From Chrysaora quinquecirrha (lineage: Eukaryota; Cnidaria; Scyphozoa; Semaeostomeae; Pelagiidae), in contig JACTAT010000016.1 of assembly GCA_014526335.1 (NCBI GenBank), positions 6,974,027-7,038,026 on the forward strand: a stretch of DNA of 64,000 nucleotides, written 5' to 3'. Under the pieces are notes generated by a model. That model did not search any database and was not told the DNA's origin. It saw only the letters and a program-made list of their open reading frames with translations. Below, one piece after another: positions 21,718 to 32,482 of this stretch. The position numbers were made by a program, and so were the translations under genes. Position 1 is the first letter of the stretch; every line of letters starts with the position of its first letter.

Positions 21718-21870
21718 GTAAGTAAATCTTTAATTACGTTGTTATGTCCCAATTGTGAAAAATATTTCAAAGTCAACATTTTACCAGATTTGTCATCACT
21801 CAGATTAATAAATACTTAACACAAAAGACTAAAAATCTGAATCTCATTCACCCAGATAATACATTATAGC

Positions 21871-22273
21871 GGCTATTTCTAAAAAGAGGAATAAGAGGAA
21901 TGAGGAGGAATGAAGAGGAATGAAGAGGAATGAAGAGGAATGAAGAGGAATGAAGAGGAATGAGGAGGAATGAAGAGGAATGAGGAGGAATGAAGAGGAA
22001 TGAGGAGGAATGAAGAGGAATGAAGAGGAATGAAGAGGAATGAAGAGGAATGAAGAGGAATGAAGAGGAATGAGGAGGAATGAGGAGCAATGAAGAGGAA
22101 TGAGGAGGAATGAGGAGGAACGGGGATGAATGAAGAGGAACGGGGAGGAATGAAGAGGAATGAGGAGGAATGAAGAGGAATGACGAGGAATGAATAGGAA
22201 TGAAGAGGAATGAGGAGGAATGAGGATGAATGAAGAGGAATGAAGAGGAACGGGAGAGGAACGGGGAGGAATG
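21871..22273 (+). repeat. MULE left terminal inverted repeat, 10-bp minisatellite
   Basis: Starts with the unique terminus GGCTATTTCTAAAAAGAGG, then about 39 units of GAGGAATGAA with variants (GGGG, GAGC, GACG). It is stop-free on minus, so a long Ser/Phe/Leu/Pro-rich ORF can be read there; that ORF is an artefact of the repeat. Confidence 0.9.
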
Positions 22274-23204
22274 AATTTCAAATCATTGGCATCTTCAAAT
22301 CCTTCTCTTTACTTCCCTTTTCTATTATTTACTATACGTTTTCCGTCATACTGAACAGCTATTGGCAACATTTGCAATAATAGTGAGGTACGATTTCCGT
22401 ACATTCGAGAATAAGAAAAATGAGACGACACATTTTACTCAACAGAACTTAACAACAACAAGTCAATAAGATTAATACAAAAGATTTCAATGTTGCTGTT
22501 GCCATAGGGCAACCATATCCCGGTACATCCAGGTATATTCCAACACGTAGCTAATAGGAGTTAATTTAGTACAGCAAAAAACTAAACGCATATTGAAATT
22601 TGTGCTACAGTTATGAAATTTTCATGCACTAGGTTGGGAGAGCAAATAGAAAACCGGGCTGTACCTCCATATAACCGAAAAAACCTCCAGAAACTTATGT
22701 CAGATAAACTTATGTTAGCATTGCTGTTGAATGTTTCCCTTTTTATTCAACCATGATACCTGAGCAGTTGGCTGGAATTGAAGGACTTGGAAATGAACAA
22801 GCGACCAAAATACTCAAATAAAATGTTACTACAATTTAGATCAGGTCAGTTCATTTATTGTATGTACGTCCAACATTCTTGTATACTGCCTCTTCTATAA
22901 ACCAAACCCTTGTTCACAAATTATTTCAGGTGTAATTTTGTTTTGGTCAGAGAAATCACAGAGTGAATGGCAATCGCAATCTCATTCTTGCATTTGAAAA
23001 GCATTTCAATCATTTTCAAATATCACCTCACACCCGCCAAAAATTTTTAGGTAGGGAGGATTTTGATTGGGAGGGAGATATTAGTTGGATAATACCTCAT
23101 AATTATCAATTAGCAAGCAAACAAACAAACAATATAACAAACAAACATCCTAGAATAAGATTACATGCAAGAGTAACAAACAGCGACGAAAAGAACAATT
23201 AAGA
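22274..23204 (-). other. MULE 3' region, no gene seen
   Basis: Lies between the left terminal array and the stop codon of the transposase gene. A minus-strand AATAAA at 22854-22859, about 350 nt past the stop, could be the polyadenylation signal. Nothing else is recognised. Confidence 0.4.
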
Positions 23205-24629
23205 TTACAAAAAAGAGTTCCAGCCAAATTCTAAACGCAGCCTATCTAAATGTTCCATTTGTAGCAAAGGTCTGAATTCGTTTGTAACAACAAGCATATT
23301 TGGTGTGAATTGTTGGTATCTTTGCTTGATGCAGTCAAGACGCAAATGGAAATGTACATTTTGTTGTTGATCCGAAATAACTTTCTTTCCCGACTGTGGA
23401 TGTCTGTACACCCGAAAGTCTTTGTATACGACGATGAGGTCTTCTGGTAGTCTCGTCGGGGGATTGCTGATCTGGCGTCCACAACCGTAGCAAACGGATA
23501 CTGTTGTACCATATACCCATTTCAGCTGAAATGACTGCGCTGGAAACGACTGAATTTGCAGTCTTGGTGGAAGAGCAGCTACCTCAGAGTGAAGTTGCCA
23601 AGGTGTTGGTTGCAGTTGGCTGCTTGAAGGGCTATTTTGCATGCATTGCTGGACATCGATATTCGGAAAGTCAGGTACTATTTTATCAATTGATGGACGT
23701 TTATTTGCAGGCGGGTGCATTTTGTTTATTTGGGCCTGGCCATATGTCTCTTGTTCAGGGTCGCTCTGAAGCATGTCTACAAATTCTGTCGGGGCAGCTC
23801 GTTTTAAATTCGACTTCTTACGAGAGCTTGGTTTCTTTCCAGCCGTTTTCGGACCCGAGGCCAACGCCATCTCGGTTATTCTTGGTCCAGCTTTAGACTT
23901 TTTGTACCATTCAATAAAATCTTTTAACACACCTTTTTTCTGCGCCACAGCCAATGTATGCTCACACAACTTAGTTGTTTTATGCACACATGACCGATCG
24001 CAAGATAGAGAGCCCCCTTTGCCAGGAGTAACAGTGTGGACATTGTTGGTGGTTCCAGCAACTATATATGAGCCATTGTCGGCACCAGGTTTGGCGACAA
24101 TTAGGTCTGGTTTAGAAAGAATGGAATTAGCTTTCGTAAATAAAGACTGCAAGATTGGAAACGGGATGGTTGTAATACCACTTTCTAATGCAGAAATGGC
24201 AAGTTCATCATTACTGGTTTCGTCAGCTCTTGTTGATGATGTGATGTCATTCTCGAGGTCACAATCTGCTGTTTCGATACCACTGCAGATGTCCATTCCT
24301 GCGTCTAAGAAATTGTTGATTGCATTTAGACGTTGCTTGTGACTCATTCTTTCCTATTTTCGTTGATCTGGCACCAAATGAGAGAACTCTTTACGGACTC
24401 TGTAAGGACCTTTGCCAAAGATCGCTCGCTCTTCGTTTCGAAACTGAGTCTCGACTATTTTTTTAATTTCCGATATGAATTCATGAGGCCGCTTTGCCTC
24501 AAAATGCAAGCCATATTTGATAAGAAAGTTACTTGCTTCCGAGTCATTATTTGTGTATTGTGCTGGTGGATCGCCAAGGCCGGCTTCAGTTCTCACATTT
24601 TGAAGCATTGACTCTTTCATTTCCTCGGC
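23205..24629 (-). CDS. MULE transposase C-terminal exon: SWIM zinc finger and zinc-ribbon-like end (internal TAG)
   Basis: Last exon of the minus-strand MULE gene. It starts after the acceptor TTCTTTAACAG at 24630. The first segment (A-E-E-M-K-E-S-M, PPAQYTNNDSEASNFLIK) continues the transposase. A TAG at 24354-24356 interrupts the frame, which then resumes at once (E-R-M-S-H-K-Q-R-L). Next comes a SWIM-type finger (S-C-D-R-S-C, then L-C-E-H-T-L-A, about 23960-24015), a basic K/S/R-rich stretch, and a C-terminal V-C-Y-G-C-G motif near 23470-23500 that suggests a zinc ribbon. It ends at TAA 23205-23207. SWIM fingers are common in MULE transposases and probably bind DNA or protein. Gene 2 (58842-59530) has the same order of SWIM, basic segment and CxxC. 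Confidence 0.7.
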
Positions 24630-24916
24630 CTGTTAAAGAAGTGACATCTTTTAGAATGATTACTTAAATTATAGTAATTACTTAAATTATAGTCATGCAA
24701 TAAACAGAAGGAAATGAAAGAAAAGGAATTATAATGAATAATAGCAACTATCAGTGAAGTAGCAGCTCATTTTTTGGACGTGTTCTTTGTAGAGGCATTA
24801 TATGCTCACTCTACGAAAAAATGTTTGTTCTTCCTAACAGTTCCAGATATGACATGTCAATTTTTTTTATCATTTAAATTTTAATGCATTTCCTCAACGA
24901 AGAAGCTCAAAGATAC

Positions 24917-30963: not shown

Positions 30964-31101
30964 CAATGATTTTCATCTCTTCAAATTCAGAGGTTTCGAA
31001 CCTCTGAAGCTTTTCGTCAAATATGGATCCTTGTTTGGTCGCTGAAGCAGGGATTTTCGGAACAGCTTGAATTGGTACATTTCGGCAATGTGCTGCGAGC
31101 G
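30964..31101 (-). CDS. Kinase gene 5' exon
   Basis: Ends G|GTGAGT at 30963. The acceptor is probably TTTCGTGCAAG (31102) or CGCTCGCAG (31093); both give phase 1. The reading ends Q-R-F-E-T-S-E-F-E-E-M-K-I-I-G, which runs into K-G-S-F-A-T-A of the next exon and so completes the glycine-rich loop across the intron. This phase match is the main evidence that the exon is real. No start codon is visible, so at least one more 5' exon should lie between here and the right terminal array, or inside it. Confidence 0.55.
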
Positions 31102-31442
31102 CTTGCACGAAAGAAATGGTGTGGTTTATTCAAAGCGTTTCATTTCATATATGCCAGCAGGATTAGGGTTCACTACTTTGGCGCCAACAACCATCCATAG
31201 CATGCATATATTAATACATTAATGCTATAATTTATCTGGTTAAGGAGTAATGGCAGCATACAGGATGTGGTCCTTATATGTTGTTTAAAGATATATCTCA
31301 CATTTCAATGAAAATCTAAATAGGGTCAGCTGATGAATTCTCTCTAGCCAAAACGGCAAAACAAAATCTAAGGCACAAACGATCAACCTATCAATCAAAG
31401 TCATCATCTTATACAAGTTTAAAAGAGCAGAATAAACGCCCC
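31102..31442 (-). other. MULE 5' region
   Basis: Between the first visible kinase exon and the right terminal array. It should hold the start of the gene and its promoter if transcription begins inside the element. I see no clear TATA box, start codon or exon. Confidence 0.3.
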
Positions 31443-32473
31443 ATTCCTCTTCATTCCTCTTCTTTCCTCTTCATTCCTCTTCATTCCTCTTCATTCCTCT
31501 TCATTCCTCTTCTTTCCTCTTCATTCCTCCTCATTCCTCTTCATTCCTCTTCATTCCTCTTCATTCCTCCTCATTCCTCCTCATTCCTCTTCATTCCTCT
31601 TCATTCCTCTTCATTCCTCCTCATTCCTCTTCATTCCTCTTCATTCCTCCTCATTCCTCCTCATTCCTCTTCATTCCTCTTCATTCCTCTTCATTCCTCC
31701 TCATTCCTCTTCATTCCTCTTCATTCCTCTTCATTCCTCTTCATTCCTCTTCATTCCTCTTCTTTCCTCTTCATTCCTCCTCATTCCTCTTCATTCCTCT
31801 TCATTCCTCTTCATTCCTCTTCATTCCTCCTCATTCCTCTTCATTCCTCTTCATTCCTCTTCTTTCCTCTTCATTCCTCTTCATTCCTCTTCATTCCTCC
31901 TCATTCCTCTTCATTCCTCTTCATTCCTCTTCATTCCTCTTCTTTCCTCTTCATTCCTCCTCATTCCTCTTCATTCCTCTTCATTCCTCTTCATTCCTCC
32001 TCATTCCTCCTCATTCCTCTTCATTCCTCTTCATTCCTCTTCATTCCTCCTCATTCCTCTTCATTCCTCTTCATTCCTCCTCATTCCTCCTCATTCCTCT
32101 TCATTCCTCTTCATTCCTCTTCATTCCTCCTCATTCCTCTTCATTCCTCTTCATTCCTCTTCATTCCTCTTCATTCCTCTTCATTCCTCTTCATTCCTCT
32201 TCATTCCTCTTCTTTCCTCTTCATTCCTCCTCATTCCTCTTCATTCCTCTTCATTCCTCTTCATTCCTCTTCATTCCTCCTCATTCCTCTTCATTCCTCT
32301 TCATTCCTCTTCTTTCCTCTTCATTCCTCTTCATTCCTCTTCATTCCTCCTCATTCCTCTTCATTCCTCTTCATTCCTCTTCATTCCTCTTCTTTCCTCT
32401 TCATTCCTCCTCATTCCTCTTCATTCCTCTTCATTCCTCTTCATTCCTCTTATTCCTCTTTTTAGAAATAGCC
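31443..32473 (-). repeat. MULE right terminal inverted repeat, 10-bp minisatellite
   Basis: The same unit in inverse orientation (TCATTCCTCT), about 102 copies, ending with the complement of the left terminus at 32473. It is about 2.5 times longer than the left array. Blocks within it recur (pattern of CTTTCC and CTCATT variants), showing higher-order duplication. Confidence 0.9.
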
Positions 32474-32482
32474 CATTATAGC

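Follow-up and report, generated by a model that had tools for sequence, protein, structure and literature searches.

Among described Mutator-like elements (MULEs), those of Aedes carry 9-15 bp sub-terminal tandem repeats in 10 of 12 families with long terminal inverted repeats (TIRs) (PMC5225508), and OTU, SET, PHD and other motifs are reported from MULE groups by Dupeyron et al. (2019), with no occurrence of the word kinase in the portion consulted (PMC6446971). Erven et al. (2022) placed VTD deubiquitinases in Helitrons, mentioned fusions of cnidarian VTD genes with domains associated with transposons, and suggested that the VTDs of Helitrons may protect proteins required for transposition from degradation (PMC9741609); comparisons with published systems here refer throughout to the consulted portions of the cited papers. 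Our analysis concerns a stretch of 64,000 nucleotides from the scyphozoan Chrysaora quinquecirrha (contig JACTAT010000016.1, positions 6,974,027 to 7,038,026 of the forward strand; hereafter the window). It contains an element that is probably one copy of an old MULE lineage, with the gene order Ser/Thr protein kinase, VTD-like deubiquitinase (DUB), acidic serine-rich linker and DDE transposase with a SWIM-like finger.

The element is delimited by an exact 9-bp target site duplication (TSD), CATTATAGC, whose copies at 21862-21870 and 32474-32482 are the sole ones in the window; MULE duplications measure 8-11 bp, mostly 9 bp. The same 9-mer occurred at least twice anywhere in 6 of 100 shuffled windows, and the chance of 9-bp identity at both fixed element edges, estimated from base composition, is about 7e-6. 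Immediately inside, GGCTATTTCTAAAAAGAGG is present exactly at 21871-21889 (plus strand) and 32455-32473 (minus strand), a pair of matches seen in none of 100 shuffles. The two ends are identical for 33 bp and agree at 59 of their 60 outermost bases, as terminal inverted repeats of a MULE do, and the element measures 10,603 bp from TIR to TIR (between the TSDs). An earlier, sequence-only reading of this DNA had noted both the exact duplication and the inverse termini, and both are borne out; to these our analysis adds 10-bp tandem arrays running inward from the two TIRs in opposite orientations, which extend the inverted repeat to 380 nt at 93%. The terminal features are:

21862..21870, no strand: left TSD CATTATAGC, 9 bp
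21871..21903, plus strand: left TIR, 33 bp identical to the right end
21884..22275, plus strand: left sub-terminal array, about 39 copies of the 10-bp unit AAGAGGAATG
31442..32460, minus strand: right sub-terminal array, about 102 copies of the AAGAGGAATG unit in the opposite orientation
32441..32473, minus strand: right TIR, 33 bp identical to the left end
32474..32482, no strand: right TSD CATTATAGC, 9 bp

All coding blocks (kinase, second domain, linker and transposase) lie on the minus strand; splice-like sites consistent with the protein alignments were located. In coding order they are:

30964..31080, minus strand: probable exon 1, from the kinase protein start to the glycine-rich loop, with a frame change inside; resembles by eye the N-terminus of P0103 and P0166
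28900..29948, minus strand: kinase domain, within exon 2 (VVVKK, HRD, DLG, APE), with a frame change near 29,648
28308..28899, minus strand: putative VTD-like cysteine deubiquitinase domain (NDGTNAC ... ETH ... GGNGNG), with frame changes near 28,820 and 28,505; the assignment draws in part on the predicted fold of the relative P0217
27688..27929, minus strand: linker exon, serine-rich and acidic (SSSSSNDLEIT), start approximate; the motif is also in P0057 and P0168
26520..26956, minus strand: exon of the pre-DDE region, from tblastn with P0029, P0057 and P0084 and splice-like sites
25030..26084, minus strand: exon of the MULE DDE transposase, in which Tyr replaces the first catalytic Asp (near 25,543)
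23205..24629, minus strand: C-terminal transposase exon, encoding the last DDE Glu, the SWIM-like finger and an additional tail with Cys residues; an in-frame TAG lies near 24,355

Two frames of the kinase match Pfam families, one Pkinase (E 8.9e-19) and the other PK_Tyr_Ser-Thr (E 2.6e-10), which confirms the kinase motifs noticed in the sequence-only reading, and the catalytic Lys, HRD Asp, DFG-type Asp and APE Glu of a eukaryotic protein kinase are all found in the window frames. The MULE transposase proposed there is likewise supported: although the DDE frame matches Pfam only below the cut-off (MULE, E 0.19; Transposase_mut, E 0.049), its exon has 102 relatives, some carrying PF10551 or PF00872, as expected of a MULE-type DDE transposase. 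The SWIM-like finger, recognized by eye, is a CX3C...CXH variant; a Pfam scan of the window gave no SWIM match. The named relatives of the DDE exon are from Paramuricea, Dendronephthya, Desmophyllum and Actinostola. For the kinase frame there are 63 relatives; the strong named ones belong to Rhopilema and Clytia, and a weak match (4.2e-4) is to a kinase of a fungus. Of the six animal genera named among the kinase and transposase relatives, four were checked and all of these are cnidarians, which by itself makes a cnidarian host probable. Intron 1 of the element also holds an insert resembling a miniature inverted-repeat transposable element (30191-30573), with inverted ends AGGGCCTGTTCATATGA, one of them with 1 mismatch.

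Behind the kinase is a second enzyme-like domain, missed in the sequence-only reading, which resembles a VTD-like (herpes-tegument-like) cysteine deubiquitinase with putative cleavage activity. The predicted fold of P0217 is that of a VTD; P0217 itself has no Herpes_teg_N match, a Pfam match present in 3 of 11 family members (best E 1.2e-4). In the family the catalytic Cys is present in 36 of 36 rows and the His in 33 of 34, and the acid position, which belongs to the Asp-x-His motif of VTDs, holds Asp in 17, Glu in 17 and Ser in 1 of 35 rows, the window having Glu.

A profile search with the kinase family, in which scoring was limited to the 7996 candidates sharing most words, found 149 proteins at E ≤ 1e-3; among the best 120, which were listed, 88 have E ≤ 1.5e-36 and the next follows at 2.2e-9. 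An HRD-type match is found in 74 of these best 88 and the Cys motif of the DUB in 47, including all 36 family members that extend at least 330 aa past the HRD motif. Among the kinase rows, several begin downstream of the Lys and six lack an APE-type match, and the gene models of P0103 and P0166 omit the DLG. The relatives P0170 and P0179 have open frames as they stand. As would be expected of repeated elements, 23 of the best 88 matches each represent at least 10 member sequences.

The link to a transposase is most direct in P0194 (1194 aa), which carries kinase, DUB and MULE transposase in one frame (PF10551, E 2.2e-5, below the cut-off) and whose predicted model is confident for kinase and DUB and poor elsewhere. 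P0057 comprises the latter half of the DUB and continues across the linker to the transposase, and the adjacent gene number, P0196, is a family kinase; the transposase P0043 and the kinase P0189 are 4 gene numbers apart, both adjacencies presuming that similarly styled gene names belong to one gene set. The gene model of P0168 extends from the DUB into the linker and includes the linker motif of the window. Three further kinase/transposase pairs are on contigs of the same size (2738133, 2073911 and 872090), the first two of which are megabases long, so that their pairs say little. As a separate observation, the window holds a second, partial MULE transposase (58842-64000, minus strand; SWIM-like and tail frames downstream by eye, upstream portion beyond the window), which is closer to the transposase of P0194 (49% over 173 aa, 58% over 72 aa) than to that of the first element.

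A very improbable reading is that the kinase/DUB stretch comes from another mobile element or gene, inserted into or picked up by the MULE, and stands beside the transposase by accident. A kinase and a similar second domain with Cys and DTH motifs do occur in P0228 (1485 aa, on a contig of 9739 bp), between an OTU-like region and DEAD/helicase regions, which shows the two-enzyme module in a different setting, and the kinase is bracketed by I6 (24 nt, 75%), one of 11 weak pairs of inverted repeats within the element. None of the 11, however, exceeds 30 nt or 89%, and strand and order match those of P0194 and of P0057 with P0196.

The age of the association was approached with a tree of 53 rows and 397 columns, made up of 38 family kinases, that of the window among them, and 15 other kinases. 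The family kinases make up one side of a branch with support 100/100 and a length of 2.25 changes per column; the position of the root within the family is unsure, as some of the outgroup rows have long branches. The window kinase groups with those of P0103 and P0166 (100/99) at no more than 61% identity. It falls with P0196 and P0189 inside a clade of 22 rows (100/96), and P0194 falls outside that clade, in a less well supported group of 16 (88/74). MULE-linked kinases are found both within and beyond the 22-row clade, which is most simply explained if the union of kinase, DUB and MULE transposase predates that clade, and the sequence comparisons suggest that the three have long travelled together.

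This tree also speaks against a recent capture of the kinase. The sequence-only reading had invoked the capture of host gene pieces known from Pack-MULEs. On such a view, this copy or a recent ancestor would have acquired a host kinase gene that is now passenger DNA; a 276-bp piece of a kinase gene in a MULE derivative of Aedes (PMC5225508) provides a precedent, and the kinase frames of the present copy are indeed broken. We nevertheless consider such a capture improbable, as the closest relatives are family kinases and not ordinary host kinases, and P0194 has all three domains within one frame. The separateness of the kinase clade, the VTD-like domain in all 36 extended members and the MULE ties of P0194, P0057 and P0168 leave that interpretation unsupported, and the kinase is better understood as an accessory component of the gene that the transposon itself carries.

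This copy is no longer intact. The three frame changes of the kinase and DUB parts were located by tblastn of P0166, and further probable ones, in exon 1 and in an A-run of the linker, were seen by eye. At the first DDE position, 89 of the 102 transposase relatives gave motif matches, comprising 85 Asp, 2 other letters and 2 false matches (13 were unmatched), and P0001, a 92% relative, has Asp; replacement by Tyr indicates that the transposase of this copy is not catalytically intact. Part of the frame changes sit in single-base runs and could be assembly errors, the Tyr less easily. The disrupted frames imply a copy that is probably either dead or mobilized with help from an intact relative, and it is probably now non-autonomous. 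The earlier description of a complete MULE with a kinase, bounded by TSDs, holds; the frame changes, the TAG and the Tyr had been overlooked.

Several points weigh against an old MULE lineage with these domains in one gene. The transposases of P0194 and the window are only 26% identical, so separate fusions are possible. The frame breaks and the lost Asp leave the copy non-functional as read. The pair on the 872090 contig (P0181 and P0028) is not congruent in identity and probably represents two elements joined; the Dendronephthya MULE gene model P0029 has no kinase, and nearly all MULE matches are single-exon pieces, uninformative on the presence of a kinase. The second domain has Glu in half of the rows, where the VTD paper has an invariable Asp, and the VTD entry 8adb was reached at only E 0.19 in a profile search of the PDB. 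Finally, a TAA immediately follows the kinase/DUB exon and, unless used as a splice donor, makes two genes possible: one transposon would then encode its transposase apart from an accessory protein with kinase and DUB, as in the multi-ORF (open reading frame) TBE of Oxytricha. Many relatives are indeed kinase/DUB frames with no transposase, though frame calling also ends at introns; P0194, by contrast, fuses everything in one frame, the gene models of P0057 and P0168 cross from DUB into linker, and a good splice donor coincides with the TAA. An arrangement of two genes seems to us rather unlikely.

If the element does represent an old MULE lineage of this composition, the roles of its parts can be outlined. 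We infer that splicing joins the blocks of this element into a single product and that both the kinase and the DUB work as enzymes. The transposase would bind the ends and the arrays and move the element by cut-and-paste with a 9-bp staggered cut of the target; the attached DUB may guard the transposase complex, or nearby chromatin or silencing factors, against ubiquitin-driven loss; and the kinase may phosphorylate the transposase or neighbouring host proteins, thereby switching activity or recruiting partners. This division into a protecting DUB and a regulating kinase draws on domain identity and on the suggestion made for Helitron VTDs (PMC9741609).

The same gene appears to have retained two host-signalling enzymes over deep divergence, which suggests a benefit to the element. 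It is possible, if somewhat doubtful, that a widespread and ancient cnidarian MULE lineage makes a single kinase-deubiquitinase-transposase protein that steers host phosphorylation and ubiquitin signalling for its own movement, by a stabilized transposase, opened chromatin or countered silencing. Cut-and-paste transposons are mostly viewed as one-enzyme parasites; were this proposal correct, such MULEs would act on host signalling much like some DNA viruses, the known carriers of tegument-like DUBs would widen from Helitrons to include MULEs as a previously unrecognized carrier, and the means by which a transposon withstands degradation or silencing could be studied in a testable system.

The remainder of the window contains other genes and repeats. 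Just left of the insertion is a NACHT-type receptor gene (17275-20686, plus strand; NACHT, E 1.9e-17) with frame shifts between adjacent ORFs, followed by a repeated region resembling leucine-rich repeats, in units of about 177 bp. A reverse transcriptase like that of long interspersed nuclear elements (33905-36168, minus strand; RVT_1, E 4.9e-23) is present in two overlapping frames. One 175-bp tandem repeat occurs at 32-1088 and again, about 38 kb away, at 38429-38973, and the repeats listed include two long arrays (43590-47655 and 49513-53911) with TGTAGGT-based units of 65-130 bp.

In its terminal structure the element resembles Muta1 of Aedes aegypti, which has an 8-9 bp TSD, long TIRs, short sub-terminal tandem repeats and a MULE transposase; Muta1, however, is 3198 bp long with a transposase of 504 aa, and the Aedes kinase is only a gene piece in a non-autonomous derivative, whereas in the present case the kinase and the VTD-like DUB are part of the element family itself (PMC5225508). 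The Helitron VTDs share a papain-like, herpes-tegument-like DUB fold carried on a DNA transposon, but belong to rolling-circle elements, and the main text of the paper describing them has no mention of kinase, MULE or mutator (PMC9741609); the acid of the family described here is, moreover, Asp or Glu in equal numbers. The 57-kDa protein of the Oxytricha TBE, compared here by description, is an accessory transposon gene product with a kinase domain, under purifying selection; it differs in belonging to a ciliate transposon of Tc1/mariner type and in being a separate ORF with a zinc finger, no DUB being mentioned in the portions consulted (PMC4724952, PMC12242761). Hydra MuDR-6_HM is a cnidarian MULE with an accessory domain of deubiquitinase type, in that case OTU and not VTD, and no kinase is given for it in the table (PMC6446971). 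No MULE combining a kinase with a DUB was found in the literature searched, whose coverage excludes Repbase reports and bioRxiv preprints. Kinases and deubiquitinases each have a precedent on DNA transposons (Oxytricha TBE and Helitrons, respectively); the element described here is a MULE with an unusual accessory module that combines the two.
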